From contig NZ_CP045178.1 of the NCBI RefSeq assembly GCF_009296025.1, positions 8,122,001 to 8,186,000 of the forward strand: a DNA stretch of 64,000 nucleotides, read 5' to 3'. Position 1 is the first letter of the stretch, and every line of letters starts with the position of its first letter. The stretch is from Streptomyces tsukubensis. Its GTDB lineage: Bacteria > Actinomycetota > Actinomycetes > Streptomycetales > Streptomycetaceae. Of this stretch, positions 45,332 through 62,195 are shown one piece after another. Under the pieces are notes generated by a model. It was not told the origin of the DNA and made no database searches. It saw only the letters and a program-made list of their open reading frames with translations. Made by a program: the position numbers and the translations under genes.

Positions 45332-45341
45332 CCAAGCCCTA

Positions 45342-46434: not shown

Positions 46435-46556
46435 CAACCGCGCGGCGTCCGGTTGAGGAAACCGTCCCCATTCGCATCGCGTGCGGTGTCATGAAGCACA
46501 TCGGTGCCGGCTCGCCGCCTGCGGACGCGCGTGGGGTTCTCGATCGCTGACGGCGG

Positions 46557-47285: not shown

Positions 47286-47818
47286 TGCGATGCGGTACAT
47301 CACCCCAGGCCCACCCAGAAGGCAGCGTGGAACTGCCGGAAGCTGCCCCGACAGGAGGAAGGGCAGCATCCCGGTACGCAGGGACAACGGCCTGCCGGGG
47401 GTCTCGGTGATGCCCAGGCCGGCGCTTCACCCGTGGTCCGGGTTGGCTGGCCGGTCAGCTGTTGAAGCGGGGCCGGCCGGGGCCCCGGTGTGGAGGCCGT
47501 CATCGGGAGCCGCGGCGCGCGGGCGCAGGGGCATCAGGGCCCCGGGCACCGGCGGCGGGCACCCCTCAGGGGCAACTGGCGGGCAGGCCGTGCTGTGGGG
47601 GCGCCGAGGGAAGAGGGGCGTGACGAGCCGGCGGTTCGCACGGGGACTCCAGCTGGCGCAGACCGCTGGCCCCACCCACCCCTCGCCACAATGTCCACAC
47701 GTCCGCAAAACCGCCCCTGGGCATTGCAAGAAGTTGGTGCCATCCGTCCTCGCCCACGGCGCACGGGTTGAAGCGAGAGCTGCCCTACGGTGCGTTTCAT
47801 GTCCCTGGTGAGAAACCC
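47286..47818. other. Non-coding stretch after the IS5 remnant
   Basis: About 530 bases; no recognised gene on either strand and no strong repeat. Probably decayed mobile-element flank. Confidence 0.4.
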
Positions 47819-48035
47819 TCAGATGCGGACGGGGGGTTCTTGCGTGCCCAGTGGTTGCCAGATCCAGTCGGCAACGCCGCGGTATGTTCCTCCGGTGCTT
47901 TCATCCGGCCATCTTGCGCGGCGGAGGATGGTGACCCGGTGCTCGGAGGTCAGGTTCCGTTTCTTCATGGGGCGGATGTCGACCGCCTTGCCGTCCTCGC
48001 CGAAGGGGGCGTCGTTGACGTACGCGGTACCGCCA
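47819..48035 (-). pseudogene. C-terminal fragment of an unrecognised protein
   Basis: A minus-strand frame with good codon bias encodes AYVNDAPFGEDGKAVDIRPM, KKRNLTSEHRVTILRRARW and GTYRGVADWIWQPLG, then a TGA at 47819-47821. No start codon or ribosome-binding site lies in the same frame before it meets the TnsA-like frame. It may be a neighbouring gene of the TnsA-like locus, truncated at its start. I do not recognise the family. Confidence 0.45.
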
Positions 48036-48486
48036 GCCGCACGCAGCCGCCACCTCCCTGGCCGCCGCGTACTTCAGCGCGTCCTCGTCCTTGATCAATC
48101 CCATCGGGCGCACGTCCAGCAGCCACGTCCCGTCGCTGATCACGGCCAAGTAGTCCGGGATGTGCCAGGACGACCCGCCTTTGTGCGTAAAGTCCAGCCG
48201 GAACGGCTGCGACAGCACTTCCGAGGCCCCCACTAAGTCCAGCGCGACCAGCAGCCGCACTTCCTCCAGCGACTCGAAGCCGTGCCCCCTGCCCGTGGAC
48301 GCCATCACCTCCAGGCCGGGCCGGTGCCGCTGCTTCGCCCGCCATGTGAACCCCCGCATCGGCCGCGACGACAGCACCGGAACACGAGCCATGTCGCGGA
48401 CCGGCCGGCAGACCTCGCCAGCACCCACCCGCCACGTCGAACTCCACCGACAAATCCAGCCATCAGCGAGATCGAGTTGATTCCGA
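48000..48486 (-). pseudogene. TnsA-like heteromeric transposase endonuclease remnant
   Basis: The minus strand encodes AGEVCRPVRDMARVPVLSS, HGFESLEEVRLLVALD, SQPFRLDFTHKGGSSWHIPD and LLDVRPMGLIKDEDALKYA, then CGWRYRV. These are the conserved blocks of the actinobacterial TnsA-like endonuclease subunit; the Glu of FESLEE, Asp of IPD and Asp/Lys region LLDVRP resemble the nuclease residues. After CGWRYRV the frame becomes low-quality sequence, and the start has no Shine-Dalgarno. None of the expected partner genes (TnsB-like transposase, TnsC ATPase, TniQ) is nearby. Confidence 0.7.
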
Positions 48487-48581
48487 AATGCGGCATCCCC
48501 GCTGTACACCTCGACAAGCTGATCGAGGCGGATCGAGTCCCATCGGATGCCCGCCCTGGCTCTTCTCGCTCGCTCACCCAC

Positions 48582-48634
48582 AGCATCACCACCCGCGTGG
48601 CGACAAGGCCCGATCTTCGGAACTGACCACAACA
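48582..48634. repeat. 53-base direct repeat, copy 1
   Basis: Begins AGCATCACCACCCGCGTGGC and ends AACTGACCACAACA. It is 52 of 53 bases identical to 49569-49621, in the same orientation 987 bases away. The two copies bracket the EF-hand gene. Confidence 0.95.
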
Positions 48635-48850
48635 CAGCGTTACGGAAGCAAGATCCGCCAACTACCGCGCTCGTCCGCCAAGTAGAGAAATCTCGTGACC
48701 TGTTGTAGGGAAGGTTGAGTGGATACCCCGTGTGTGGCGTGGTGCCTTGGAGTCGGTAGTGCGGACGGCGGCGGCCGCCCGCTGGAAGTGGGTCCAGGGG
48801 CGGCCGTGGGAGGCTGACCGAAGGCCGGCGGGCGCCTCGAAGCCGGTGGG

Positions 48851-49402
48851 TCAGATGTGGCCGAAGAAGATGCTGCCCGGGGCGTCGGGGTCGTTGGAGA
48901 GGAAGTGCTCGCGCACCGCGCGGATGAACTCGTGGCGGGAGATCGCCCCGTCCCCGTCGGTGTCCAGCTTGTAGAACAGGTCCATTGTCGCCGTCGAGTT
49001 GTACTTCCAGACGTCCCGCATCAGACGGGCGAACTCGTCCTTGCTGATCTCGTTGTCACCGTCGGCGTCGATGACGTCGAAGATCGCGTGGCCGCCGCCC
49101 TCGGTCACGTTGAGGCGGCTGGTGTCGATGACCGCAAGGCGGTTGGCGGTGACGAACTGGTCCTTGGTGAGCCGGTCCCCGTCCACGCCCGCGTGGCGCA
49201 GCAGCTCCAGCCAGTAGATCTGGCAGAAGGTCTGCAGCGCCCTGGTCCGGCGGTCGTCCTTGGCGAGGTTGTACCCCTGGATGTAGCGGTCCGCGAGCTT
49301 CTGGTAGTCCGACCAGTCGAGGTGGCCGTCCTTGTCGGCGTCCATCTGGTCGAAGGTGCGCTCAAGCTTGACGGTGGTGATGTCCTGCGCCGTAGTGGTC
49401 AT
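48851..49402 (-). CDS. EF-hand calcium-binding protein (calerythrin-like)
   Basis: A 183-residue cytoplasmic calcium-binding protein. Three canonical EF loops are visible: DADKDGHLDWSD (about 20-31), DADGDNEISKDE (about 110-121) and DTDGDGAISRHE (about 145-156). A degenerate fourth loop, VDGDRLTKDQF (about 70), lacks the usual acidic pattern. The four-hand layout with one silent loop and this length match calerythrin / sarcoplasmic-type proteins of actinomycetes, thought to buffer calcium. The ATG at 49402 follows AAGGGA. It is intact among pseudogenes and flanked by a direct repeat. Confidence 0.9.
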   Translation of the reverse strand: MTTTAQDITTVKLERTFDQMDADKDGHLDWSDYQKLADRYIQGYNLAKDDRRTRALQTFCQIYWLELLRHAGVDGDRLTKDQFVTANRLAVIDTSRLNVTEGGGHAIFDVIDADGDNEISKDEFARLMRDVWKYNSTATMDLFYKLDTDGDGAISRHEFIRAVREHFLSNDPDAPGSIFFGHI

Positions 49403-49568
49403 GGGTATCCCTTTTTCTTGATCACATCTGTTGACCTGTTCAGCGTCGGCCACAGCCCTCCACCAGGGGCCGAAATACCCAGTTCATCACCCGATCTAGT
49501 GAGCACCTCCGGTTCGGCACGCGTGCCTGATCCGGCTGCTGGGCCACGCCGAGCGGCGGACCATCCAG

Positions 49569-49621
49569 AGCATCACCATCCGCGTGGCGACAAGGCCCGA
49601 TCTTCGGAACTGACCACAACA
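49569..49621. repeat. 53-base direct repeat, copy 2
   Basis: Differs from copy 1 (48582-48634) at one position. Sequence outside the repeat is unrelated, so the boundaries are sharp. It could be an element end, a target duplicated with the EF-hand gene, or the scar of recombination. Confidence 0.95.
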
Positions 49622-49815
49622 ACGAGGAGCCGCAGATCCCGCCCACGCGGAGCGTGAAGAACCAGGACGTCCACCGCTGGTGTTTCTACGAGAAGCCGTT
49701 CTTCGAGGAGGGGGGCCGGACGCGTGAGGTCGGGAAGTTCGAGAACGTGAAGGACCTCGGGTTCCAGGCCCGCTCCGCCAGGCAGGAGGCCTGCCAAAAC
49801 GGCGGGGAGGACTGA
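49621..49815 (+). pseudogene. C-terminal fragment of a secreted-type protein (possibly beta/gamma-crystallin-like)
   Basis: A good-quality frame starts right at the end of direct repeat copy 2 and encodes PPTRSVKNQDVHRWCFYEKP, REVGKFENVKDLGFQARSAR and QEACQNGGED, then TGA. The W-C-F-Y-E, G-K-F and D-L-G-F pattern resembles the beta/gamma-crystallin or I36 inhibitor fold of secreted actinomycete proteins, but this is tentative. No start codon or signal peptide is present: the 5' part was lost at the repeat boundary. Confidence 0.5.
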
Positions 49816-50134
49816 GTCAGGTCCTGGACGGGAGCGGACGAGGTGCCCGGCAGTGCGCCGTAGAGGCCCGTACCGGTTCGCGGTATCCGGTGCGGGCCCC
49901 TTGCCACTGTGCGGATGACCTGAGCGCTTTCGCCCGGTCGGGCCCCCGTCGCGGTGCATGGCCGATATGTGGGAGGGCGCGCTTCCCTCCCCGAGGTTCA
50001 GTGGCCTTCAGCAGCACAACCGCGGCCCCGACCGCCACATGGGGGTTGCGAACGGGACCACAGCGGGTCTGTACGGGGCCGACGGCCGCTGTTGTGTACA
50101 CGGGCAGAATGCCGCGGACGAGGTCGGCGGCCGT

Positions 50135-50490
50135 TCACGGCCCGGCCATCCTTCCCGTGACCGGATTATGCGGAGAGTCGGGGGCCACGGGCAGCCGGAT
50201 GCCGTGGCTGACGGTGCCGGCTGTCTCCCCGAGACCGGTTTCATGAGCGCTGTAGACCCTGGGGACGACACCTTTCTTGTCGTTCCACAGGGACCGCGCG
50301 GCGCTCCAGGCGGCTTCGCGGGCGGCGGTGATGGAGAAGCTGGCGACAGCGTGCTTGAGGAGTTCGACATCCCGGGCGGCGATCTTGACAATCTGGGTCT
50401 CGAACTCGGTACGAACCTCCTCGGTGCCTGCCAGAAGGTCATTGACATGCTCGTAGTCCTGATGGACCGCTGACGATTCGGCCGTACGCC
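50135..50490 (-). pseudogene. Fragment of an unrecognised helical protein
   Basis: A minus-strand frame with protein-like composition encodes HQDYEHVNDLLAGTEEVRTE, then FETQIVKIAARDVELLKHAV and AREAAWSAARSLWNDKKGVV. Further upstream the same frame degrades into Arg/Pro-rich text, indicating a truncated or frameshifted gene. I cannot assign a family. It may alternatively be a short gene with an undetected start. Confidence 0.35.
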
Positions 50491-50941
50491 GACCTTGTCC
50501 AGCCCCGACGCGTGGCCTCGGTGCAGCGCCTTCAGTACGCGGGGGAGTTCCAGGAGGTTGGCGGCTGCGGCGCGGTGAAAGGCCGACGCGTTCGTCTCTG
50601 CGTGAATGAGCGGGACGCGGATCGGATCGGCAGGTCGGTCTTCTTGAGCGGCTTGCCGGCGGTTCGTGCAGGCGCTGGCAAGCTTCTACGACGCGGACGC
50701 CGGCGATGTCGTCCAGGCCGAGCTCGCCTCCAACGCCGCGGCCGCAGCCCGGGGCTGCGCAGAGCCGCCTCGGATCGCGGCCCCCGTGCTGCCGAGGTCG
50801 AGCTGTCCTTCGATTTCTCGGCGACCGGGCGAGGCCGTCCCCCGCACCCGCTGATCGCCTGTATCCGGCATGGAAGCACTGTGCTGAGCTGCCGGGATCC
50901 CTCATGACGCAGCAGGGTCCCGGCAGGGCAGGCTGGCCAGT

Positions 50942-51010
50942 TGTCACCTTGCCTTCATCCACGCCGGCAGACCTCGGTGGTGGTCCGGAACCTCCGCACG
51001 ACGACGGACC
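50942..51010. repeat. 69-base diverged direct repeat, left copy
   Basis: Begins TGTCACCTTGCC and ends CACGACGACGGACC. It matches 59047-59115 at 58 of 69 positions without gaps, in the same orientation. The two copies lie 0.7 kb before the conservon and 0.4 kb after the tryptophanase gene. Confidence 0.85.
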
Positions 51011-51562
51011 GCCCCGACAAACCGATCCCGCCGGGTTCACGGGGTGCGCGCTGCGCGAGACGCCACTCCTCGGCGCTCAGCGAGGCGCTCGCCCTCAACG
51101 TGCCTGACATCGCGCTTCTGCTCACCCGGCCACCCTCGCGCACCGCCACGTCCCCCACTTCGGCGACGGTCCGGTCCCCACCGCGGCGACGGTCCGGTCC
51201 CCGCCCGGCGACGGTCCGGTTCCCGCCCGGTGGGCGGCTCGCCCACGACCTCGCTCCGTCCGTGCCACTCGGGCGGCGATCCGTGTGAGCTCCAGGGGAA
51301 CGCGGCCGTCGGACCCGGGTCGCGGCCTTATAAATCGGCCATCCTGCGCCGTGCGGAAGGCCGCCGTCCGGGCCTCTTCTCGGAAATCCGCGCTCCGCCG
51401 CGTCGACCGGTTCTTGGGCGAGGACACGTTCGTCGTGTCGTGGGAGGCCGCGCGTACCTGGCCGGACAGCTCGCCGCGCCGCCGAACGTGCACACCGGTA
51501 CCACACTTTCTTCACTGATCTCAACAACTATTTTCCGCCAATGAGGCTGCGGCGCGTCGTAC
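51011..51562. other. Non-coding region upstream of the conservon
   Basis: Holds the tandem repeat at 51162-51228. Open frames here are Arg-rich and unsupported. The last 170 bases before cvnA are AT-richer than the rest of the window and contain the candidate promoter. Confidence 0.45.
51162..51228. repeat. Three tandem copies of a 22-23-base unit
   Basis: GGCGACGGTCCGGTCCCC followed by 4-5 variable bases occurs three times in tandem (51162, 51185, 51207), with one T-for-C change in the third copy. It is about 510 bases upstream of cvnA. It could be a minisatellite or an array of protein-binding sites. Not CRISPR: there are no spacers. Confidence 0.9.
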
Positions 51563-51593
51563 TTGACAGAGCCTCATGATCGTCCGGTGATAC
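51563..51593 (+). promoter_or_regulatory. Candidate conservon promoter
   Basis: TTGACA (51563-51568) with TGATAC (51588-51593) at 19-base spacing, in the AT-richer stretch 143 bases before cvnA. It would leave a leader of about 135 bases. It is the only strong -35 in the region. Confidence 0.5.
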
Positions 51594-51735
51594 GATTTTG
51601 GGCACATGCCACGTGGGCTTTCTCCTCCGATGAGGGCTACAGCCAAGGGCTCTCCGGGGGTGAAGGCTGCCCGCAGCCGAGGGTCCGCATGGACAGATTC
51701 CGAGAGCTGAATTCCAGCCGCTCAAAGAGAGTCAC

Positions 51736-52935
51736 ATGACGAATTTTTGGCAGGATCCGACAGTCTGGGCGCTTACTGCCGGCGTCCCTGTCGCGACCGC
51801 GGTAGTCGTTCGCCAGCGAAAAACGATCCGGGTGTTGCGCCGTCAGAAGCAGGGCGTCGAAGAGGATTTGGGCGCACTGCAGGGCAGTTATGCCCACCTC
51901 GAATCAACCCTCGAAGAGCTGCGGAGGGGCTACGACGAGGTGGTACGACAGGCCAAGGAGGAGGCGGAGAACGCCACAAATACCGTACTGAAGTCCGCGA
52001 TGCAGACGCTCCAGGGCCTCGCGGCGGAGCAGCAGCGGGTCATCTCCGGGCTGCAGAGCACGTACGGTGACTCGGCCGTGCTGCAGGATCTACTGGATGT
52101 AGACCATATGAACGCCCAGTTCAACCGACGCGCGCAGTCCATTGCCGTGTTGTGCGGAGGGTGGCTCGGCAGGCAGCGGGGGGCGGCATCGGTCTATGAC
52201 GTGATCCGCGGCGCTCAGGGCCGTATCCGGCACTACCAGCGCGTCGAGGTCCTGTCGCAGGTCGACTTCGCGGTGACCAGCCGGGCGGTCGAGCCGCTCG
52301 CGCTGACGGTGGCCGAACTGCTCGACAACGCCACCAGCTACTCAGCGCCGTCGTCCATGGTCGAGATCAACGTGCGGACGGTACCCAGGGGTATCTGCAT
52401 CGTGATCGATGACGCCGGCGTCGGGATGAGCGAGGAGGAGAAGACGAACGCCTCGGCCCTCATGTCCAGTGAGTCCGCGGTGAGCGTCTCCGAACTCGGC
52501 AACCCGCCCGCGTTCGGTTTCGCGGTGATCGGTGCCCTGTGTGCTCGCTTCGGGTTCACGGTCACCATCGACAGCACCTCTCCCTATGGGGGCGTCCGTG
52601 CGGTGGTGATGGTGCCGAAGGATCTGCTGACCGATACGCCGGAGCCGAGGAAGCCCAGCGCAGCGCTGGCGGCCGACTCCGGTTCGAGAAGTAACGGTTC
52701 TGCTCCTGTGGAGACATCTGACGGGCTGCCCAGGCGAAGGAACAAGCGGGCCATGGCGCTCGTGTCGGACACGCAGCCCGTCCCGCCTCCGCCGTCCGCC
52801 CGGTCGGCGGAGGCAAGGGTAGCGGCTATGGGCGCCTTTCAGCGTGGCACCGTCGACGGCCGAAGTGCGAGGGGGCCGGCCGTCGAACGTGATCCCAGTC
52901 CTGCCGATTCACACAAAGGAACCGATGCCCCGTGA
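51736..52935 (+). CDS. cvnA: Conservon sensor-like ATPase CvnA
   Basis: A 399-residue membrane-associated histidine-kinase-like protein. One hydrophobic segment (about 9-26) anchors it. A long coiled coil (about 28-110: LESTLEELRRGYDEVVRQAK) follows, then a dimerisation region and an HATPase_c domain (about 170-300) with N-box ELLDNATSYSAPSS, G1 DDAGVGMSEEE and G2 AFGFAVIGALCARFG. The C-terminal 100 residues are disordered and Ser/Pro-rich. Conservon A proteins recruit the B, C and D proteins to the membrane in a eukaryote-like G-protein-coupled arrangement. GAGAG lies four to five bases before the ATG; the stop overlaps the cvnB start (GTGA). Confidence 0.93.
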   Translation: MTNFWQDPTVWALTAGVPVATAVVVRQRKTIRVLRRQKQGVEEDLGALQGSYAHLESTLEELRRGYDEVVRQAKEEAENATNTVLKSAMQTLQGLAAEQQRVISGLQSTYGDSAVLQDLLDVDHMNAQFNRRAQSIAVLCGGWLGRQRGAASVYDVIRGAQGRIRHYQRVEVLSQVDFAVTSRAVEPLALTVAELLDNATSYSAPSSMVEINVRTVPRGICIVIDDAGVGMSEEEKTNASALMSSESAVSVSELGNPPAFGFAVIGALCARFGFTVTIDSTSPYGGVRAVVMVPKDLLTDTPEPRKPSAALAADSGSRSNGSAPVETSDGLPRRRNKRAMALVSDTQPVPPPPSARSAEARVAAMGAFQRGTVDGRSARGPAVERDPSPADSHKGTDAP

Positions 52936-53342
52936 GTAGCGACGACCTGTCCTGGATGCTTGAGGACGCGCTGGCCATTCCGCACGCCCTCCACGCGGTC
53001 CTGATCTCTGCCGACGGCCTGCAGATGTCCCGCACGGCGGACATCGGCCGGGACGAGGCCGACAAGGTCGCCGCTGCCGTGAGTGGGTTGCAGTCTCTCA
53101 GCCGGGCCGTCGCGTTCTTCTGCGGTGACGACAGCCTGAACAACTGGCGCCAGACACTCATCGAGTTCGACGGCGGCTGGGTTTTCCTGAACGCGGCGGG
53201 TGGCGGCTCCTTCCTCGCTGTGGCGGCTTCGGCCGATGTCGACATGGGGGACATCACTTACCGGATGCAGCAGCTCGTCGGCAGGCTGGGCAAGGCGATG
53301 TCGACCGGCCGTCGCGACGACACGGTCAGCGCTCATGACTGA
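52932..53342 (+). CDS. cvnB: Conservon roadblock/LC7 protein CvnB
   Basis: A 136-residue Roadblock/LC7 (MglB-like) protein: LEDALAIPHALHAVLISADG and GGWVFLNAAGGGSFLAVAAS are the central strands. In characterised conservons CvnB interacts with the GTPase CvnD, like a GTPase-activating partner, and with CvnA. The GTG start overlaps the cvnA stop by four bases; its own stop lies eight bases inside cvnC. Confidence 0.93.
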   Translation: MSSDDLSWMLEDALAIPHALHAVLISADGLQMSRTADIGRDEADKVAAAVSGLQSLSRAVAFFCGDDSLNNWRQTLIEFDGGWVFLNAAGGGSFLAVAASADVDMGDITYRMQQLVGRLGKAMSTGRRDDTVSAHD

Positions 53343-53718
53343 CCCCGGCCGTTTCGAGCCCGAGTCCGAAGCCGGGGAATTAGTCCGGCCGTACGTCATC
53401 ACCCGCGGACGCACCCTGCCCGACGAGAATGAGTTCTCACTCATCACCCTCGTCACGACGGCCACGGACGAGCGACAGCGTCCCCAGCGGCTCTCTCCCG
53501 AGGAGCAGCAGGTCCTGGAGATGTGTTCGAGCGGCTATCTTTCGGTCGCTGAGATCGCCGCGCACTCCCAGCTACCTCTCGGCGTCGTCAAAGTCCTGCT
53601 CAGTGCCCTCGCCGAGGGGGGCTATCTGGTCACCCGTGCGCCGGTGCCCTCGGCTCGACTCGCCAACACAACTCTTCTTCAGGAGGTGCTCGATGGTCTC
53701 AAGGCCCTCCCTGTCTGA
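53335..53718 (+). CDS. cvnC: Conservon DUF742 protein CvnC
   Basis: A 127-residue DUF742 protein with a winged-helix-like fold: VRPYVITRGRTLP near the start, then QVLEMCSSGYLSVAEIAAHS and PLGVVKVLLSALAEGGYL. It overlaps cvnB by eight bases and cvnD by 26. Codon 16 is TTA (53380-53382, Leu of GELVRPY), a rare codon in Streptomyces read only by the bldA tRNA. Full expression of the conservon is therefore probably delayed until development. Confidence 0.92.
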   Translation: MTDPGRFEPESEAGELVRPYVITRGRTLPDENEFSLITLVTTATDERQRPQRLSPEEQQVLEMCSSGYLSVAEIAAHSQLPLGVVKVLLSALAEGGYLVTRAPVPSARLANTTLLQEVLDGLKALPV

Positions 53719-54298
53719 GGACGCATACGTGCGCAGCGGTGCAGAGCAGACTGCGGTGAAAATCTTGGTCGTCGGGCATTTCGCGGTCGGCAAGACCACC
53801 TTGATCGGCTCTCTCTCCGAAATCACGCCGCTGTCCACCGAAGAGCACATGACGAGCCTCTCCGAGTCGGTGGACGATCTCAAAGGAGTACAGGGGAAGA
53901 CCACCACCACCGTCGCCCTGGACTTCGGTCGCCTGACACTCAGTGAGCGCATCGTGCTCTACCTGTTCGGGTCACCGGGACAGCAGCGGTTCGTCAATCT
54001 GTGGGACGACATGGCCCGCGGAGCGCTCGGCGCCCTGATCCTGGTGGACCCCGAGCGGCTGGCGGACAGCTTCGAAGTCATGGATCTGATCGAGACCTAC
54101 GGCCTCGACTTCGCTGTTGCCATCAACGCATTCGACGGCGGCGCGGAGCACACACCCGAAGCGGTTCGGGAAGCGCTCGACCTGCTGCCCGACACCCCGG
54201 TCGTCACCATTGACGCACGCGACAAAAAGTCGTCCGTGAACGCACTGATCACCATGGTCCGCTACTTGCAGAAGCGCGCCGCCCTGGAGCATGCATGA
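53693..54298 (+). CDS. cvnD: Conservon GTPase CvnD
   Basis: A 201-residue MglA/Ras-like small GTPase. The P-loop GHFAVGKTTLIG lies at about 27-38; VALDFGRLTL and FGSPGQQRF (switch II, DxxG replaced by SPGQ) and AINAFDG (NKxD-equivalent) follow. The ATG at 53693 is placed inside cvnC because AGGAGG lies six to seven bases before it. The stop overlaps the P450 start (ATGA). GTP binding state is presumed to be regulated by CvnB and CvnA. Confidence 0.92.
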   Translation: MVSRPSLSEDAYVRSGAEQTAVKILVVGHFAVGKTTLIGSLSEITPLSTEEHMTSLSESVDDLKGVQGKTTTTVALDFGRLTLSERIVLYLFGSPGQQRFVNLWDDMARGALGALILVDPERLADSFEVMDLIETYGLDFAVAINAFDGGAEHTPEAVREALDLLPDTPVVTIDARDKKSSVNALITMVRYLQKRAALEHA

Positions 54299-55650
54299 CA
54301 ACCCCCTCCGTACCTCCGCCCGGCTGCCCCGCACACGGCAGCGGCCGGCGCATATCCCTCGACACACCGGAGTTCGCCGCCGACCCGCACGCGTTCTACC
54401 GGTACATGCGTCAGTCCGGCCCCACAGCGGCCGTCACCATCGCTCCCGGAGTGGACGCGACCCTGGTGACGGACTACAGCGCAGCACTCGAACTTCTGCA
54501 GGACCCGGGCACCTTCCGCAAGGACTCACGCCGGTGGCGTGACCTCAACGAGGGCCGCGTCAACCCCGACAGCCCGGTCCTGCCCCTGCTGTCCTACCGG
54601 CCCAACTGCATGTTCACTGACGGCGCCGAGCACCTGCGGCTGCGTCAGGCCATCACCGAGAGCTTCGCCCGCATCAGCAACAGCCGGCTGAGCAAGATCG
54701 TCAACCAGGCTGCCCGCTTCCTCATCTCCCAGTTCAGCGCGCGCGGCTCGGCCGACCTGCTCAGGGATTACGCGCAGCAGCTGCCCCTGTACGTGTTCAA
54801 CGAACTCTTCGGCTGTCCGGCGGAGATCGGCGACCGCGTGCTGTTCGGGATCTCCGGCATGTTCGACGGAGTCAACGCCGAGCAGGCCAGCCAGGTCCTG
54901 GCCCAGGCGGTCGGCGAGCTGGTGGCGTTGAAGCGCGCCCAGCCGGGTGAGGACATCACGTCCTACCTGCTGCAGCATTCGGCACAGCTGACCAACGAGG
55001 AGCTGGTGCACACGCTGGTGCTGCTCCTCGGCGCGGGCGGTGAGCCGGAGGGCAACCTCATAGGCAACGGCTTCTACACCATGCTGACCAATGAGGAGTA
55101 CGCGCGCAACGGACAGTTCGACAAGGCGCTCGACGACACCCTGTGGCGGAACCCGCCCATGTCCAACTACGCGCCGCACTACCCGGTCGCCGACACGGAC
55201 GTGGGCGGCGACAAGGTGCGCGCCGGTGAGCTGCTACTGGTGAGTTTCGGTGCCGCCAACACAGCGCTGGCGGACCGAGGAGCCGACACGCGCGGGCACC
55301 TTGCCTGGAGCGCGGGTCCGCACGCGTGCCCGTCGAAGGAGCCGGCCAGGCTCATTGCCCTGACGGGCTTGGAGACCCTGTTCAACGCGTTGCCCGACGT
55401 CGAACTCGCGGTCCCCGCGGACAGCCTCGTCTGGCGGCCCGGCCCGTTCAACCGGGCCCTGACGTCCCTGCCCGTTCGCTTCGGGGCGGTCACACCGCGT
55501 CCTGCGGCCCAGCCTCAGCCGACGGCCGTGCCACACCACCAGCAGGTGCACCAACCTGTCGCGCCCAGGCCTGCGGCACCGCAGGCCGCCGGGGGCAAGT
55601 CGGGGCGGGGCGGCTGGAGTGGCTTCGTGAGGTGGCTGACAGGTCAGTAG
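54295..55650 (+). CDS. cvnE: Conservon-linked cytochrome P450 (CvnE type)
   Basis: A 451-residue P450-like protein, translationally coupled to cvnD. The heme-thiolate loop reads WSAGPHACPSKEPARL, with Cys about residue 345. The I-helix that normally carries A/G-G-x-D/E-T reads LLGAGGEPEGNLIG: Thr is replaced by Pro. The K-helix ExxR is blurred (DDTLWRNPP). Conservons cvn9-13 of S. coelicolor also end in P450 genes, and atypical oxygen-activation residues are consistent with a regulatory or unusual catalytic role. A Pro/Gln-rich tail (about 400-450) resembles a flexible docking segment. Confidence 0.9.
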   Translation: MTTPSVPPPGCPAHGSGRRISLDTPEFAADPHAFYRYMRQSGPTAAVTIAPGVDATLVTDYSAALELLQDPGTFRKDSRRWRDLNEGRVNPDSPVLPLLSYRPNCMFTDGAEHLRLRQAITESFARISNSRLSKIVNQAARFLISQFSARGSADLLRDYAQQLPLYVFNELFGCPAEIGDRVLFGISGMFDGVNAEQASQVLAQAVGELVALKRAQPGEDITSYLLQHSAQLTNEELVHTLVLLLGAGGEPEGNLIGNGFYTMLTNEEYARNGQFDKALDDTLWRNPPMSNYAPHYPVADTDVGGDKVRAGELLLVSFGAANTALADRGADTRGHLAWSAGPHACPSKEPARLIALTGLETLFNALPDVELAVPADSLVWRPGPFNRALTSLPVRFGAVTPRPAAQPQPTAVPHHQQVHQPVAPRPAAPQAAGGKSGRGGWSGFVRWLTGQ

Positions 55651-56001
55651 CCGTCAAACGCACTGTGACGCAGATGACACAGGCGGTTGCTGTAGCCCGC
55701 ATGAAAGATCAACTACTGGGGTAGGACTGCGCGGAGTGTCTGGAGTGACACACGATGAAGGAGAGGCAGTGGGACCCGAAGCAACCTCCGCGCAACGTTC
55801 TGCACACAAGCGGCCGGACCAACGGCGCACTACTGCCAGTGGAAAGAGACCGTGCGGGGGCGGCGACCCCGACGAACCACATGGCCGGACAGCCGCCTCT
55901 CCCGGCGGTTCTCTTTTTGTCTCTTCGTCCGCCGGAACATCACGCTCCCGTACCCCCGCGCCCTGCGAACGCTCTCAGCGCCTCGAAGCGCGGGGGGCGC
56001 G
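55651..56001 (+). promoter_or_regulatory. Leader region of the prenyltransferase-tryptophanase genes
   Basis: 350 bases without a supported gene between the P450 and the prenyltransferase. It contains a terminator-like hairpin with a T-run (55891-55915) and a competing stem. An overlapping frame beginning MKERQWDPKQ runs on past the prenyltransferase start and is not a clean leader peptide. The prenyltransferase pair may therefore have its own promoter and attenuation instead of simple read-through. Confidence 0.45.
55891..55935 (+). terminator. Attenuator-like alternative hairpins before the prenyltransferase
   Basis: Stem 1: AGCCGCC (55891-55897) with GGCGGTT (55904-55910), six-base loop, followed at once by CTCTTTTTG, a factor-independent terminator form that is unusual for Streptomyces. 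Stem 2: CCGGCGG (55902-55908) with CCGCCGG (55929-55935), seven perfect pairs. The two use the same GGCGG strand and exclude each other, and stem 2 places the T-run in its loop. Confidence 0.5.
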
Positions 56002-57168
56002 ATGACCTCCCGTCCGGAGACCGGCATACCGACAGGCGGCCCCGGAGAGGGAACGCTCGGAGACCACGTTCTCGGTCAACTGCGGCGCCTCGGCGCCACG
56101 GTAGGCCTGAGCGAGGCGGACACCGAGCTGTACGGGCAGGTCCTGCTCGACTCCCTCCCGGGCGCCGCCGGGCGACCGTTGACCCTGCCGCCGGCTTCAC
56201 CCAGCTTCATCTCCGATGACCACACACCGGTCGAGTTCTCCCTCGCCAGCACGTCGGACGCCGCTCCGGTACTGCGGGTGCTGGTGGAGCCCGGGTACGG
56301 CCACAGCACCATGGCCGACAGCGCTCGCGCCGGGGTCGATGCCATCCGCGCGATGGCTGCCCGCTGGGACTTCTCCACCGACCAACTCGACGCCCTGGGC
56401 GACCTGTTCTTACCCGCTTCGGCCGAGGGACCACTGGCCCTGTGGTACGCGCTCGACCTGCGCGCCGGGGGAGTCCCCGGAGTCAAGGTCTACCTGAATC
56501 CCTCCGCCGCCGGAACCGAACACGCCGCGCGGACAGTGCGGGAGGCGTTGCGTCGACTCGGATACGGCGAGGCCTTCGCGAAACTCCCCCCTGCGGCGGG
56601 ATATCCGTTCGTCGCACTGGACCTGGGCACCTGGAAGACGCCACGCGTCAAGGTCTACGTGAGCCACCCGCGCATGTCGGCCGATGACGCCAGCGCGCTG
56701 AGCCGTAGTTCCGGGGCCGCCGAGGCCGACATCAGGTACTTCTTCCACGCCACCGCAGGATCGTTACTTCCGACTCAGCGGGGCGGCGACGACACGCTGC
56801 GGCTTCTCAGGAGGCCGGCGCTCACCTGTCATTCCTTCACCCAAGGAGACGCCGAGCCGAGCGGCTTCACGCTCCACATCCCCGTACGGGACTACGTCCG
56901 CGACGACGAGGAGGCCGTCACCCGGGCGGCGGCCCTGCTGACCCGGTTCGGCATGGACCCCTCCATCCTGAACCGCGGGTTGCGCGCCCTCACCCGACGA
57001 CAACTCGCCGACGGTGCCGGGCTGATCGCCTACCTCGCTCTCGTGTACGAGCGAAATCAGCGGCCCCGGATCACCGCCTATCTGTCCTCCGAGGCCTACG
57101 CCGTCCGGCCGCCGCATGAGCGGTACCCGCAGGACGAACGTGTACCAGCAGATCTCAGCTCGTCCTGA
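56002..57168 (+). CDS. DMATS-type aromatic (indole) prenyltransferase
   Basis: A 388-residue ABBA-fold prenyltransferase of the DMATS/CymD/6-DMATS group. SSTSDAAPVLRVLVEPGYG-type blocks (LASTSDAAPVLRVLVEPG), WYALDLRAGGVPGVKVYLNP, WKTPRVKVYVSHP and YLALVYERNQRPRITAYLSS are the strand pairs whose Arg/Lys and Tyr bind the dimethylallyl diphosphate. No Asp-rich metal motif is present, as expected. The likely substrate is tryptophan or indole, supported by the tryptophanase gene next door. Two TTA codons (56410-56412 and 56764-56766, residues 137 and 255) make it a bldA target. The start has only a G-rich SD (GGGGGG). Confidence 0.88.
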   Translation: MTSRPETGIPTGGPGEGTLGDHVLGQLRRLGATVGLSEADTELYGQVLLDSLPGAAGRPLTLPPASPSFISDDHTPVEFSLASTSDAAPVLRVLVEPGYGHSTMADSARAGVDAIRAMAARWDFSTDQLDALGDLFLPASAEGPLALWYALDLRAGGVPGVKVYLNPSAAGTEHAARTVREALRRLGYGEAFAKLPPAAGYPFVALDLGTWKTPRVKVYVSHPRMSADDASALSRSSGAAEADIRYFFHATAGSLLPTQRGGDDTLRLLRRPALTCHSFTQGDAEPSGFTLHIPVRDYVRDDEEAVTRAAALLTRFGMDPSILNRGLRALTRRQLADGAGLIAYLALVYERNQRPRITAYLSSEAYAVRPPHERYPQDERVPADLSSS

Positions 57169-57226
57169 ACCCAGGGCACAAGGCCTCCGGCCACGCCAGC
57201 CCGCACACCGCACAGAAGGAAGCCAC

Positions 57227-58600
57227 GTGGAGCCGTACCGCATCAAAGTCGTAGAACCCATCGCGTTCACCACCAGAGCGGAGCGCGAAGACGCGTTGAG
57301 GCGGGTCGCCTACAACCCCTTCGACCTGCGTGCCGACGAAGTCACCATCGACCTGCTGAGTGACTCGGGGACCGGCGCCATCTCCGCGGAACAGCTGGCC
57401 GCGGGCATGAACGGCGACGAGTCGTACGCCGGCAGCCGCTCGTTCTACCGCTGGCACGAGGTCGTCTCCGAACTCACCGGCTATCCCCACATCCTGCCGG
57501 CACACCAGGGCCGGGCCGCCGAGCGCATCCTGTTCTCCTCACTCCTCAGGCCCGGCACGAGTGTGCTGTCCAACACCCACTTCGACACCACGCGTGCCAA
57601 CGTCGAGCTGACCGGCTGTCAGGCCTATGACCTGCCCTGCGCCGAGGCGAAGGACCTCGACAGCGACTATCCCTTCAAAGGCAACATCGACCTGACAGCC
57701 CTTGAGCGTGCGTTGGAGAACGCGCACGAGGCCCCCGTGGCAGCGGTGCTGATGACCATCACCAACAACGGTGGCGGTGGCCAGCCGGTCAGCATGGAGA
57801 ACCTGCACCGGACCGCCGCGCTCTGCCGCCGCCACGCCGTGCCCCTGATCCTGGACGCGGCGCGCTTCGCGGAGAACGCCTGGCTGGTGACCCAACGCGA
57901 ACCGGGCTACGAGGGCCGCACACCCCGCCAGGTCGCCGAGGAGGCCTTCCGCCTCGCGGACGGCTGCGTCATGAGCGCGAAGAAGGACGGCATCGTACAT
58001 ATCGGCGGCTTCATCGGTCTGAAGGACCCCGAACTCGCCGAGCGGTGCCAGGGCCTGCTCATCGCCACCGAAGGGTTCACCACCTACGGCGGCCTGGCCG
58101 GCCGTGACCTCGACATGATGGCCCGCGGGCTCCTCGAAGTCACCGAACCGGCATACCTCGCGGAACGTGCCGACATAGCCGGCTACCTCGCCGCACGTAT
58201 CCGCGAAGCCGGAGTCGACATCGTGGAACCGGCCGGCCTGCACGCCCTCTATGTCAACGCCGGGCGGCTCCTGCCCCACATCCCACCGCACCAGTACCCC
58301 GGCACCGCGCTGGCCTGTGAGCTTTACCTCCGCGGAGGCATCCGCTCGGCAGAACTGGGCTCGCTGTATCTGGGTGAGGAGGACGAGCAAGGAAACCCCA
58401 CCAGGACCGCGCCCTACGAACTCGTGCGGCTGGCGCTCCCGCGCCGCGTCTACACCCGCAGCCATTACGACCATGTCGCCAACACCCTGGCGGACATAGC
58501 CAAGAACCCCGAATCGGTGCACGGCTACCGCATCGTGGGCCAGTCGCCGATACTCCGCCACTTCAGCATCAAATTGGAGTCTGTGCGGTCCGGTAACTGA
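57227..58600 (+). CDS. tnaA: Tryptophanase (beta-eliminating lyase)
   Basis: A 457-residue PLP enzyme of the tryptophanase/tyrosine phenol-lyase family. RWHEVVSELTGYPHILPAHQ-like N-terminal blocks, NTHFDTTRANVE, ITNNGGGGQPVS, the PLP lysine in SAKKDGIVHIGG (K253) and PRRVYTRSHYDHV are conserved. The late LRHFSIKL keeps the His (about 445) that is found in tryptophanase but not in tyrosine phenol-lyase, favouring Trp to indole, pyruvate and ammonia. The GTG at 57227 follows AGAAGGA. With the prenyltransferase it could convert prenyl-tryptophan into a prenyl-indole, as known for streptomycete 6-dimethylallylindole pathways. Confidence 0.92.
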   Translation: MEPYRIKVVEPIAFTTRAEREDALRRVAYNPFDLRADEVTIDLLSDSGTGAISAEQLAAGMNGDESYAGSRSFYRWHEVVSELTGYPHILPAHQGRAAERILFSSLLRPGTSVLSNTHFDTTRANVELTGCQAYDLPCAEAKDLDSDYPFKGNIDLTALERALENAHEAPVAAVLMTITNNGGGGQPVSMENLHRTAALCRRHAVPLILDAARFAENAWLVTQREPGYEGRTPRQVAEEAFRLADGCVMSAKKDGIVHIGGFIGLKDPELAERCQGLLIATEGFTTYGGLAGRDLDMMARGLLEVTEPAYLAERADIAGYLAARIREAGVDIVEPAGLHALYVNAGRLLPHIPPHQYPGTALACELYLRGGIRSAELGSLYLGEEDEQGNPTRTAPYELVRLALPRRVYTRSHYDHVANTLADIAKNPESVHGYRIVGQSPILRHFSIKLESVRSGN

Positions 58601-58730
58601 TCCGCCGTCGCGGCCGGGACGCCAACCGGCCCATCGCGCCGCGCACGGCTCGTGCCACGATCCGTGCGCCGCACACGGCTTGTGCCACGCTCCGCGGGTT
58701 GCCCGGCGGAGTACCTGCCGCTGGGCTGAA

Positions 58731-58940
58731 TCACCAGCGCTTGGGAGCGTCGAGCAGCACGCCGTCGCATCCGGCGGCCTCGAAGGGAACCCGCTCGGCA
58801 ACGCCGTCCGCTTCCCACTGCGCGTAGGAGTCGTAGACGGTGTTGCTGGGAGGGAAGTCGTGCGGCGGGTACTCCCACGCGATCCCTGAGCGGTCGCCGT
58901 AGAGGAAGGCGTTCACGATGTCCCGCAGATCATGGACGCC
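58731..58940 (-). pseudogene. IS5-family transposase N-terminal fragment
   Basis: The minus strand encodes VHDLRDIVNAFLYGDRSGIA, EYPPHDFPPSNTVYDSYAQW and EADGVAERV, the DUF4096/helix-turn-helix start of IS5-type transposases (usual theme: RCGIAWRxLPxDFPPWxTVYxxFxxW). It ends after 70 residues. It marks the right border of the conservon-prenylindole region. Confidence 0.75.
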
Positions 58941-59046
58941 TGCCGCGGCGCCCGGCCCGGTGCGGGCAGCCCGTGGTGGTATCCGTCGTGGGCCCGGCCC
59001 TGGCCCATGCCCCGTAAAGTGCCTGCTCACGCGTGGGACGACCGGC

Positions 59047-59115
59047 TGTCACCTTGCCGTCGTCCCGGCCGGCACATCGGGGTGATGGTCCAGAACCTCC
59101 TCACGACGACGGACC
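59047..59115. repeat. 69-base diverged direct repeat, right copy
   Basis: Partner of 50942-51010 (58 of 69 identical, same orientation, no gaps). It lies between the IS5 fragment and the MBL-fold gene. Confidence 0.85.
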
Positions 59116-59375
59116 ACGGCCATGATCGCGCACGCCCCCGCAAACGGGGTAGAAGGCGTTTCGAGCGTTGCTCCCTTTCCCTCCCGCCCGCGCCCGGCGC
59201 CGGTCACCCGCACGCCGATCCCACTGGTTCTGCGCGATCGGTGGGGCGAGGCGGGAGCGAGGGAGCAGGCGGCTGTCACAGTCCGGGCTGCTGTCCGGTC
59301 CTAGTGACTGACTGAACGGTGTGACCCGTCACGCCGTCGATGTCTTCGGTCGACGCTCTTCAAGAGGAGAACAGC

Positions 59376-60290
59376 ATGAGCCAGATCAACATCGCACGCC
59401 CCAACGCACCGACGTATGACGAATTGGTGCCGTCGCGCTATGCGCTGAAGGTCGGCGACATCGACGTGATGGTGATCAGCGACGGGGTACTGCCGATACC
59501 CGCAGTGACGATGGCCACCAACGCCCCCGCGGCCGACCTGGCGGCCTGGCTGAAAGACATGTTCCTGCCGCCGGAGACGCTCGACTGGCCACTGAATGTG
59601 GCCGTGGTGCGCAGCGGCGGCCGGACCATCCTGGTCGACTCCGGGCTGGGGACAGAGTTTCCTGGCTTCCCTCGGGCCGGGCAGTTGGCCATGCGGCTGG
59701 ACGCCGCCGGGATCGATCCGGCATCCGTGACCGACGTGGTCCTCACCCATTTGCACATGGACCACATCGGCGGGCTGCTCGTCGACGGGCTGAGGGGCCG
59801 GCTGCGCCCGGACCTCCGCGTTCACCTGGCGTCCGCTGAGGCGGAGTTCTGGGAAGCGCCCGACTTCTCCCGCACCGCCATGCCGACACCGGTGCCGGAC
59901 GTGCTCCGAACGACCGCCTCGCGGTTCCTGGACGTGTACCGCAGCCAGCTGCGGCCGTTCGAGAAGGAGTACGAGGTGGCTCCGGGAGTGCTGATCAGCC
60001 GCACCGGTGGTCACACCCCGGGTCACAGCATCATCCGTCTGGAGTCCGGCGGCGACCGACTGACGTTCGCCGGTGATGCCGTCTTCCAGCCGGGGTTCGA
60101 CTGCCCCGACTGGCACAACGGCTTCGACCACGATCCCGAGGAATCGGCCCGCGTCCGGATCCGTCTTCTGAACGAGCTGGCGGCGCGCGGCGAACAGCTG
60201 GTCGCCACGCATCTGCCGTTCCCGTCCATCTGCCGTGTGGCGGTCGCCGGGGATGCCTTCCGTTTCGTACCGGCCGTCTGGGACTACTGA
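59376..60290 (+). CDS. MBL-fold metallo-hydrolase (lactonase-like)
   Basis: A 304-residue metallo-beta-lactamase-fold hydrolase. The zinc motif THLHMDHIGG (HxHxDH, about 130-138) is followed by TGGHTPGHSII (third His, about 212-218) and TFAGDAVFQ (bridging Asp, about 233). An N-terminal extension of 25 residues precedes the fold. The spacing is that of the AHL-lactonase/AttM and methyl-parathion-hydrolase-like group. The substrate is a lactone or ester, unspecified. GAGGAG lies six bases before the ATG. It is outside the flanking repeat, so not necessarily part of the prenylindole region. Confidence 0.88.
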   Translation: MSQINIARPNAPTYDELVPSRYALKVGDIDVMVISDGVLPIPAVTMATNAPAADLAAWLKDMFLPPETLDWPLNVAVVRSGGRTILVDSGLGTEFPGFPRAGQLAMRLDAAGIDPASVTDVVLTHLHMDHIGGLLVDGLRGRLRPDLRVHLASAEAEFWEAPDFSRTAMPTPVPDVLRTTASRFLDVYRSQLRPFEKEYEVAPGVLISRTGGHTPGHSIIRLESGGDRLTFAGDAVFQPGFDCPDWHNGFDHDPEESARVRIRLLNELAARGEQLVATHLPFPSICRVAVAGDAFRFVPAVWDY

Positions 60291-60306
60291 CCGTACTTCG
60301 ACCGGA

Positions 60307-60329
60307 CCGGCGCGAGAACAGCGCGCCGG
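60307..60329 (+). terminator. Terminator after MBL-fold gene
   Basis: CCGGCGCG pairs with CGCGCCGG around a seven-base loop, 16 bases after the stop. The following 357 bases up to the hmp stop hold no recognised gene; a short GGTGGC run lies near 60560. Confidence 0.7.
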
Positions 60330-60686
60330 AGGCCAACCTGGTATGCGGCCCTGGTTGTCAAGTGAACAGGGTGGAGCGGTGCCCACTCGCCATCGCCGTG
60401 GGCGCCGCTCCGGCAACGGTGAGCCGGATCTATCTCCGACCACAACCACGTCTCGTCCTCCCTCCGAGCGGGCCCGGTCGCCCTTCGACCAGGATGCTCG
60501 CGCGGTACCCCGCACCGGCCACGACGGGAACGGGGCCGGCCGCCGTCGGCCAGTGTCTCGGTGGCGGTGGCGGTGGCGGTGCATGGTGCCGCGGCCGGGA
60601 CCTGGTGGGGGCCCTCCTGCCCGCAGTGCTGATGTTTCCAGGCAGGTCGGCGGGGTGGTGCCGACGCCCGCCCCGCCGGGACGCTC

Positions 60687-61943
60687 CTACTTGCTGAGCC
60701 AGAGGTCGGGGCCGAAGACCTCGTAATGAATGGCCGCGGGGCTGAGCCCATGGGTGAGCAGGTCGCCGCGGACCGTCCGCATGAACGGCAGCGGGCCGCA
60801 GAGGAACGCGGTGGTGTTCTGAGGCAGTGTCAGGTCAGAGATATCCGCACGGCCTTCGCGCACCCGCACCACATGGGTCTCCCGCTCCCGCTCCAGCTCG
60901 CCCGGTTCCCCGGCGACGGTTCCGTACCGCTCTCCCACGCCGTTCTCGTACCACAGGTGTAACGAGGCACGGGTCAGTCGGCCCACGAGCTCGGACAGCT
61001 CCAGGCGGTGGGCGTGATCGGTGGGGGAGCGGTCCGCATGGATGATGACCACGGGCCGGTCGGGCGAGACGCTGGCCAGGTGGTCGAGCATGGAGAGCAT
61101 GGGGGTGATGCCGATGCCCGCGGAAGCGAGGAGCAATGGTCCTTCGCCGTCGAGGAGGACCAGGTCACCGAAGGGCAGGGAGACCTTCAAGGTCCGGCCC
61201 GCTCGGGCATGGGCGTGCAGCCAGGAGGACACCTCCCCCTCGGGGACATGCCCGTCGGCCGAGCTCTCCCGCTTGACGGTGATGCGCCAGTTCTTGTGGC
61301 GAGGAGACGTGGACAGGCTGTACTGGCGTATCTGCCGTGCCCCGTCGGGTAGTTCGACCTGGACGCTGATGTACTGGCCGGGCAGGAAGGGATCGGTGGG
61401 GAGCCCGTCGGGGCGGCGCAGGACGAAGGAAGCGGTGTCGGGCGACTCCTCGGTGCGCTCTGCGACCTCCATGTCCCGCCACACGACACCGTTCTCGACG
61501 CCGGCCTCGGCGTACAGCCTGGCCTCCATGGCGATGAGGGCGTTGGCCATCAGCCAGTACACCTCGTCCCAGGCGGCAGCCACGGCCGGAGTGACAGCGT
61601 CGCCGAGGACCTCCTTGACGGCACCCAGCAGGTGACGGCCCACGAGGGTGTACTGCTCGGACGTGATCCCCAGTGAAGCGTGTTTGTTGGCGATGCGGCC
61701 GAGCACGGCGTCAGGACGCTCTTCGGGGTGTGTCACGAGCGCGGTGGCGAAGGCCGCCACTGCTCCGGCGAGGGCCTCGCGCTGTGCGCCGTTGGCCTGG
61801 TTCGCCCTGTTGAACAGGGTGCGCAGCAGGTCCGGGCGTTCCTCGAACATGCGAGTGTAGAAGAGCTCGGTGATGGTGCCGAGGGAGGCACCGACCGTCC
61901 GAAGTGTGTCGCGGACGATCGGGGCTGATGGTGAGGAGAGCAA
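60687..61943 (-). CDS. hmp: Flavohaemoglobin / nitric oxide dioxygenase
   Basis: A 418-residue NO dioxygenase converting NO, O2 and NAD(P)H to nitrate. The globin domain (about 1-140) has the proximal His in IANKHASLGI. The FAD domain (about 145-255) has RQYSLSTSP. The NAD(P)H domain (about 260-415) has LLASAGIGITPMLSML and FLCGPLPFM. A TTG start at 61943 is proposed because AGGAG lies five bases before it and the resulting MLSSPSAPIVRDTL is the normal Hmp N-terminus; the ATG 21 bases upstream would bury the ribosome-binding site in the coding region. No NsrR-type site was recognised upstream. Confidence 0.93.
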   Translation of the reverse strand: MLSSPSAPIVRDTLRTVGASLGTITELFYTRMFEERPDLLRTLFNRANQANGAQREALAGAVAAFATALVTHPEERPDAVLGRIANKHASLGITSEQYTLVGRHLLGAVKEVLGDAVTPAVAAAWDEVYWLMANALIAMEARLYAEAGVENGVVWRDMEVAERTEESPDTASFVLRRPDGLPTDPFLPGQYISVQVELPDGARQIRQYSLSTSPRHKNWRITVKRESSADGHVPEGEVSSWLHAHARAGRTLKVSLPFGDLVLLDGEGPLLLASAGIGITPMLSMLDHLASVSPDRPVVIIHADRSPTDHAHRLELSELVGRLTRASLHLWYENGVGERYGTVAGEPGELERERETHVVRVREGRADISDLTLPQNTTAFLCGPLPFMRTVRGDLLTHGLSPAAIHYEVFGPDLWLSK

Positions 61944-62146
61944 GGTGACTCCTATCGCGATCATGCGACATGCCTACGTCTTGCGTACGACACCATGTTA
62001 GTCAGTGGGAGGCCGCGCTGTGCGTGAAAGGTGATGCTTTCAGCCGGGTGAGGAGTGGATATGAGGTCCGGTCACACCGTCTGCAACGACACGGTGTTGT
62101 TCGGTACGACGCCCGTGCCGACCGGGTAGCTCACCTCTTACAAGTG

Positions 62147-62173
62147 CCCCCTGCGGTATCGCACCGCAGGGGG
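62147..62173 (-). terminator. Terminator after coiled-coil/winged-helix gene
   Basis: CCCCCTGCGG pairs with CCGCAGGGGG (10 perfect base pairs, seven-base loop), 22 bases beyond the stop of the minus-strand gene. Confidence 0.75.
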
Positions 62174-62195
62174 GACCCGCGTGTCTTGGGGGCGC

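Follow-up and report, generated by a model that had tools for sequence, protein, structure and literature searches.

A CvnE-type conservon, a SigB-like promoter element and a leader hairpin upstream of a Type A indole-prenyltransferase operon in Streptomyces tsukubensis

The analysed DNA, referred to here as the window, is a 64,000-nucleotide part of the 8.63 Mb genome of Streptomyces tsukubensis, and the stretch under study covers its positions 51563..58600. The stretch contains a run of seven genes, all on the + strand, in the order cvnA-cvnB-cvnC-cvnD-P450-DMATS-tryptophanase. The ordered genes for a histidine-kinase-like protein, a Roadblock protein, a DUF742 protein and a small GTPase constitute a conservon, and the P450 gene behind cvnD, together with a CvnA protein in which no sensory domain was recognised, makes it a CvnE-type conservon. 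The analysis concerns the relation of this conservon to the prenyl-indole genes behind it and, in particular, a promoter-like element, a leader open reading frame (ORF) and a hairpin located between them. The features of the stretch, all on the + strand, are as follows.

51563..51600, +: conserved block ahead of cvnA; TTGACA at 51563-51568 (alignment of the upstream regions of the window and seven close relatives)
51736..52935, +: cvnA, histidine-kinase-like protein, 399 amino acids (PF02518, 34.4 bits; PF13589)
52932..53342, +: cvnB, Roadblock/LC7 protein (PF03259, Robl_LC7, 63.7 bits)
53335..53718, +: cvnC, DUF742 protein (PF05331, 123 bits)
53693..54298, +: cvnD, small Ras-like GTPase (PF03029, ATP_bind_1, 97.1 bits)
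54295..55650, +: cvnE, putative pseudo-cytochrome P450 (DTLW at the ExxR position, GEP in the I-helix, haem Cys present)
55699..55724, +: SigB-like promoter element GCATGA-N14-GGGTAG (reads ATC in place of the TTC of the strict pattern)
55758..55765, +: Shine-Dalgarno-like AAGGAGAG ahead of the leader ORF (conserved block in alignments)
55769..56005, +: leader ORF of 78 codons, starting with GTG and ending in a TGA that overlaps the DMATS ATG (ATGA)
55888..55913, +: imperfect hairpin within the leader ORF, with a T run after it; drifted version of the palindrome GATACCCGCC-N6-GGCGGGTATC
56002..57168, +: DMATS-type tryptophan dimethylallyltransferase (PF11991, Trp_DMAT, 43.5 bits, cut-off 25)
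57209..58600, +: tryptophanase, GTG start (NF009709, 617.9 bits, cut-off 285)

The overlaps of 4-26 bases from cvnA to the P450 gene reported in the initial annotation were confirmed as 4 (cvnA/cvnB), 8 (cvnB/cvnC), 26 (cvnC/cvnD) and 4 bases (cvnD/P450 gene), so translational coupling as far as the P450 is plausible. The ORFs and the Pfam and NCBIfam profiles likewise bore out a DMATS prenyltransferase and a tryptophanase downstream in the same direction. The DMATS start lies 351 bases behind the P450 stop, and 40 bases separate DMATS from the tryptophanase gene. The statement that no other gene lies between them is doubtful, as the 351-base gap holds the promoter-like element, the 78-codon ORF and the hairpin. 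Position 51563, given as the start of the stretch, is the first base of a TTGACA motif and not the cvnA start codon. The block at 51563..51600 is a possible promoter of the conservon operon; a sigma-70 consensus scan gave no match in it. CvnA has a single N-terminal hydrophobic segment, judged by eye, and the domain search returned its HATPase domains only (PF02518, PF13589), with no sensory (NIT) domain. Weaker similarities, all under the respective cut-offs, were a helix-turn-helix match in CvnC (HTH_IclR, 20.9 bits, cut-off 22), TIGR00231 (small GTPase) for CvnD (33.5 bits, cut-off 42.5) and TIGR03429 for DMATS (130.8 bits, cut-off 163.85). Rfam at the gathering threshold gave no match in the window, and ARAGORN found no tRNA there.

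The gene content and the pathway class are near certain. The solved structure nearest to the window DMATS is PriB (415.9 bits), followed by 6-dimethylallyltryptophan synthase (376.9 bits), and from these relatives the enzyme is probably a 6-DMATS with C6 regiospecificity. In the lyase, FDTT and LRHF agree with the compared tryptophanases, while the compared tyrosine phenol-lyase has FTTT and LRFF. The prenylated-indole pathway proposed initially is thus well supported by family. DMATS would prenylate L-tryptophan, probably at C6, and the tryptophanase would remove the side chain to give 6-dimethylallylindole, which would then be oxidised towards the 3-carbaldehyde, as reported for the family.

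Ozaki, Nishiyama and Kuzuyama surveyed more than 10 IptA homologues in 2013 (PMC3617294), and stated that every cluster has a conservon and some additionally a P450. They distinguished Type A clusters, with a tryptophanase and the product 6-dimethylallylindole-3-carbaldehyde (citing Takahashi), from Type B clusters, with a flavin monooxygenase (FMO) and the product 5-dimethylallylindole-3-acetonitrile, and proposed that the conservon signals. With a conservon upstream of DMATS and a tryptophanase present, the window locus is a Type A cluster, whose architecture has been known since 2013 and is not new. The FMO profile had no match in window positions 45001-64000, which agrees with the absence noted initially; the enzyme is not, however, missing from a fixed set, since tryptophanase and FMO mark the two alternative published types.

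The linkage between conservon and prenyltransferase was followed in 392 genomes searched for DMATS with TIGR03429; some of the pattern scans described below covered 199 genomes only. Matches were found in 85 of the 392 genomes, one of them being the window's own, and 91 loci from the other 84 genomes plus the window made 92. Two loci (L133, L134) gave no DMATS ORF by profile, which left 90 classified loci, and one (L132, 121 bits) fell under the tree cut-off, so that the maximum-likelihood DMATS tree had 89 rows. Twelve further named loci stand outside the locus counts. The tree showed that 55 of the 89 rows form one clade (support 100/99), and at 52 of these 55 loci at least three of the four cvn genes lie directly upstream on the same strand. 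The conservon-DMATS linkage is beyond chance, and the claimed tie between the conservon and the prenyl-indole genes is strongly supported, although both the architecture and the signalling idea were already in print in 2013. The linked loci comprise 23 with tryptophanase and P450, 27 with FMO and P450 and two with FMO and no P450; the combination of conservon, P450, DMATS and tryptophanase, for which a search had been suggested, is thus present in 23 of the 55 clade loci. Three clade loci deviate: L090 is truncated by the contig end, L103 has the P450 but not cvnABCD, and L069 has neither. The FMO loci form one sub-clade of 30 (97/96), and the conservon and CvnE were retained through the change from tryptophanase to FMO.

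Conservon-less relatives, meaning loci with no conservon within about 9.5 kb on each side or to the contig end, also exist. Eight DMATS-tryptophanase loci of this kind (L055, L082, L083, L093, L097, L101, L102 and L117) adjoin the clade in the tree, as does L110, and on this basis the conservon probably joined a tryptophanase-type ancestor, the tree being midpoint-rooted. These loci correct the statement of PMC3617294 that all clusters carry a conservon. Independent occurrence of the conservon and the enzyme genes in most relatives, which the initial annotation named as an argument against the link, was not observed inside the DMATS clade and was observed outside it. Genomes G063, G207 and G248 hold both conservon-linked and conservon-less DMATS loci. 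A third arrangement was found at L104-L109, where all six loci have a more distant DMATS, a PatB-like pyridoxal-phosphate enzyme and a convergent, different conservon, the P450 of which has EQVLW in the K-helix and keeps ETT in the I-helix. The remaining 20 classified loci have no conservon by the rule applied. Loci L003, L004 and L013 are on three contigs of one S. alfalfae assembly and are equal in length and profile scores, which is perhaps assembly redundancy.

The promoter-like element was seen in an alignment of the first 170 gap bases of 30 representatives. SigB-type promoters are reported to have a -35 GNNT and a -10 starting with GGG, for example SCO0566p, GCATAA-N14-GGGTAT (PMC8346170), and the window element agrees, by sequence only, with this family pattern (GNNT-type -35, 12-15 nt, GGG-type -10). 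Its slightly relaxed form, with a single fixed spacing, is present in 48 of the 52 linked loci; the misses are L081 and L094 (GTATGA), L054 (GCATCA) and L079 (none). Measured from the P450 stop in 49 loci that have this gene, the element begins after 30-52 bases; the two loci lacking the gene have it 70 and 89 bases beyond the stop of cvnD. L103 and L090 carry it as well. The relaxed element was not found in the eight conservon-less DMATS-tryptophanase loci, L110, L069 or the six group C loci.

The strict pattern, GCATGANNNTTCN8GGGTA, gave 38 sites in the 392 genomes (21 in the first 199). Twenty-six are upstream of a clade DMATS; one of these is at a contig edge and the other 25 directly follow CvnE. 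Nine more sites also come directly after CvnE and precede a second P450 with an enoyl-CoA hydratase gene (G023, G028, G064, G175, G191, G194, G265, G294 and G358), so that 34 of the 38 directly follow CvnE. One site precedes the P450-hydratase pair with no adjacent conservon (L187 in G183) and two are unrelated (G098, G335). As controls, a spacer one base shorter gave one site in 199 genomes, and the pattern read backwards gave none in 392.

The frequency of this conservon away from DMATS rests on a P450 search in 199 genomes and on 20 sister regions, which are the upper rows of that search among the matches listed that do not lie beside DMATS (the rows from G135 and G035 were left out). Six of the 20 have the element close behind CvnE, and L145 has it about 230 bases behind. 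A recurrent pair of genes, for a normal P450 and an enoyl-CoA hydratase, follows the sister conservons at L138-L140, L142-L148, L153, L154, L203, L204 and L206. At L135 and L136 the conservon, CvnE and FMO stand in Type B order with no DMATS between them; the relaxed element was not found there, and the convergent genes are separated by a GC-rich hairpin similar to the leader palindrome. Overall, the element follows the conservon across payloads rather than one pathway, and the simplest reading of this distribution is that module and promoter were kept while the payload was exchanged, with losses.

Downstream of the element, 44 of the 55 clade members have an exact or near-exact copy of the palindrome GATACCCGCC-N6-GGCGGGTATC, and the nine conservon-less neighbours outside the clade have none. 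A scan of 199 genomes for the core pattern of the palindrome returned 17 sites, each of which precedes the DMATS match at a clade locus by 78-182 bases. The window copy, GACAGCCGCC-TCTCCC-GGCGGTTCTC followed by a T run, fails the core pattern, and a terminator scan gave two terminator-like sites, against 2.7 in shuffles. As the window copies have drifted, the case for both the element and the hairpin rests on the relatives; a leader ORF and a terminator-like hairpin before DMATS, the two features expected of a transcription attenuator, are present here and kept in most of them, and the window hairpin alone is not beyond chance. Pair counts were made on 52 of the 55 clade members (49 distinct sequences), L069, L079 and L099 having no recognisable copy, and 90.1% of cells pair. 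In L044 and L050 the palindrome persists while the leader is read in another frame, which indicates that the nucleotides, not the peptide, are conserved; an IPAxxGGY stretch of the leader was rejected as a peptide motif on these grounds. The idea of a tryptophan-sensing TnaC-like leader was also dropped, since the apparent MKERQW start is interrupted by a stop in L064.

The palindrome could be a DNA operator for a dimeric regulator instead of an RNA hairpin, a reading that we regard as possible though the less probable one. It would agree with the nearly invariant core (24 bp in 43 of the 44 exact or near-exact copies) and with the persistence in another reading frame just described. However, the palindrome lies roughly 90-185 nt downstream of the promoter element, both partners vary in six of the 12 pairs, and covariation scores 0.142, compared with 0.067 in shuffles, which ignore phylogeny (0 of 500 reach the observed score; best slid value 0.081). 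Such two-sided changes and the T-rich tail that often follows the palindrome favour an RNA attenuator over an operator.

Control of the DMATS-tryptophanase operon by the conservon, through the promoter behind cvnE, is the best-supported explanation of these observations, and we consider it somewhat more probable than its negation. It is favoured by the conservation together with the reported repression by the Cvn8 conservon of its adjacent lanthipeptide cluster (PMC13343842), and the element behind cvnE is the best candidate for the conservon's output site. CvnE would most likely bind a small ligand or report its haem state to CvnA, the signal would pass through CvnB, CvnC and CvnD, and transcription of DMATS and tryptophanase from the SigB-like promoter would change. 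The leader ORF and hairpin would add a second, attenuator-like control. The sub-threshold helix-turn-helix match in CvnC may be taken as a lead to the route to the promoter, and only as a lead.

Several observations weigh against this explanation. Besides the eight conservon-less DMATS-tryptophanase loci, even the relaxed element is missing from five of the 12 sister loci that carry the P450-hydratase pair (L138, L140, L148, L153 and L154), and L103 keeps CvnE, the element and the hairpin without cvnABCD, which shows that the element and the conservon core can separate; the sister loci and L103 lower our confidence slightly. The strict pattern is matched by only 26 of the 55 clade members, the window copy has drifted and there is no strict match in this genome, and two of the 52 linked loci lack CvnE. 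The window hairpin has a mismatch, and its fold (z -1.67) was equalled by 12 of 200 shuffles. Shared ancestry may also lie behind part of the shared element.

Several of these points recur in the view that the conservon and the prenyl-indole operon merely travel together, a SigB-family factor driving the operon while the conservon controls something else. The element does look like an autonomous SigB-type promoter (PMC8346170), DMATS-tryptophanase loci exist without a conservon, and the element with its payload stands without a nearby conservon at L187 and without cvnABCD at L103. On the other hand, the 34 strict sites directly behind CvnE precede two payload kinds, and the linkage is kept in 52 of 55 loci, so that we judge simple co-travel unlikely, while still giving it appreciable weight.

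Control by the conservon with leader attenuation also has to be compared with a direct role of the leader product. At 44 of the 52 linked loci the stop codon of an ORF of 31-87 codons overlaps the DMATS start (ATGA or GTGA) in another frame; the rule applied tries several starts per locus, and this count is therefore not a probability. In four of the 52 the ORF is fused in frame with DMATS, and in four (L046, L047, L048 and L053) neither rule holds. The distance from the GTG start to the hairpin ranges from 45 to 138 nt and is a multiple of 3 in 40 of the 47 loci measured among the 52, one of the seven misses (L067) being a wrongly called start. This periodicity, the Shine-Dalgarno sequence, start and first codons conserved in many loci, and the in-frame fusions would suit a working small protein or a true N-terminus of the prenyltransferase. 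The remaining leader peptide is, however, poorly conserved, and the out-of-frame ends at 44 loci also speak against such a role, which we regard as rather unlikely.

The P450-like protein was examined as the candidate input of the conservon. It is divergent, matching PF00067 with 19.3 bits (cut-off 22.8) and NCBIfam P450 models below threshold, while solved P450s match it over most of its length (best 141.8 bits). All 51 aligned CvnE proteins from DMATS-linked loci have Trp in place of the ExxR Arg, all have lost the I-helix Thr (Pro in 49, Ala in two) and all retain the haem-ligand Cys; the alignment has 63 rows when the 12 further named loci are included. The same Arg and Thr losses, with the Cys kept, were seen in 21 of 21 CvnE rows of sister loci, and 14 low-scoring payload (second) P450 rows beside sister conservons keep Thr, ExxR and the Cys loop. 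Of the features expected of a catalytic P450, the window protein has the haem Cys and lacks ExxR and the I-helix Thr, and CvnE looks like a pseudo-enzyme. The P450 tree, with SH-like approximate likelihood-ratio support only, grouped the 51 proteins with L135, L136, L141 and both of L137, 56 rows in all (support 99). Locus L048 in G118 is a DMATS cluster without CvnE, and about 0.9 Mb away in the same genome L137 consists of two tandem CvnE-like P450 genes without cvnABCD, which perhaps act in trans. Structure predictions from 11-row alignments were poor (mean predicted local distance difference test values of 39.0 for CvnE and 46.1 for CvnC), and nothing rests on them.

Tailoring and sensing roles had both been proposed for the P450. 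Because the catalytic residues are lost, the haem Cys is kept and CvnE is retained across the enzyme change, a sensor is favoured. The joint retention of CvnE and the conservon across that change speaks against a P450 dedicated to tailoring. As the P450 is kept in both types, any pathway ligand would be common to Type A and Type B, which suggests a compound such as prenyl-tryptophan. That the P450 oxidises the prenylated indole, e.g., to the 3-carbaldehyde, is quite improbable: its gene stands between regulator and pathway, it retains the haem Cys and the reported family product requires an oxidation step (PMC3617294), but the catalytic Arg and Thr are absent in 51 of 51, the protein is kept in FMO-type loci with a different product, its relatives adjoin unrelated payloads, and conservon-linked CYP157 proteins are reported to lack EXXR (PMC3599690).

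Taken more widely, the CvnE-conservon clade could be a plug-in control module equipped with an output promoter of its own, GCATGA-N14-GGGTAG, a short distance after the P450 stop. Module and promoter would be kept while the payload is swapped (prenylation and tryptophanase, prenylation and FMO, or P450 and enoyl-CoA hydratase), the pseudo-P450 would sense a hydrophobic ligand or the haem state, and the prenyl-indole versions would add cluster-specific leader-hairpin attenuation. We put this generalisation forward tentatively, at somewhat less than an even chance. Conservons are abundant in Streptomyces and their inputs and outputs are mostly unknown; an exactly spaced element that follows one conservon clade across payloads offers a concrete reporter for the output, and a P450 fold without catalytic residues a concrete candidate for the input. 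To our knowledge, no cis target has otherwise been defined for a conservon, and a literature search at the level of titles and abstract starts returned no conservon tied to a defined promoter. The control model could also bear on the poor expression of such clusters in culture reported for S. lividans (PMC3617294).

Outside the stretch, positions 59340-60290 of the window encode a protein of the metallo-beta-lactamase fold that weakly resembles quorum-quenching lactonases (122.7 bits, cut-off 360), and positions 60687-61964, on the opposite strand to that gene, a flavohaemoprotein-like protein (342.7 bits, cut-off 432).

A search of the literature for conservon-prenyltransferase pairs or SCO7467 returned PMC3617294 only, most subscription journals being outside its scope. 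Compared with the Type A cluster described there (Streptomyces sp. SN-593 type), the window shares the conservon, the optional P450, DMATS and the tryptophanase, and the gene content shows no difference. The available text of PMC3617294 mentions no leader, palindrome, inverted repeat or attenuation, and both its uses of 'promoter' concern a plasmid; the linkage counts in the DMATS clade, the P450 residue loss, and the promoter element, leader and hairpin in the gap are new here. Type B (SCO7467/SCO7468) belongs to the same DMATS-conservon clade and has the same promoter-like element and hairpin in most loci, but carries a convergent FMO in place of the tryptophanase. The CYP157 P450s likewise stand behind conservons, with LW in the K-helix at the expected ExxR (PMC3599690), whereas the window CvnE lacks the I-helix Thr as well; the likeness is not an assignment in P450 nomenclature. 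Finally, CvnE and CvnF proteins are reported to accompany overwhelmingly CvnA proteins that lack a sensory domain, and CvnF8 is reported both to bind CvnA8 and to stimulate it (PMC13343842). Cvn8 is also a conservon with an accessory protein adjoining a biosynthetic cluster that it controls, but its accessory is the GAF-type CvnF and that of the window the P450-type CvnE, and repression is reported for Cvn8, while the window system is known from its sequence.

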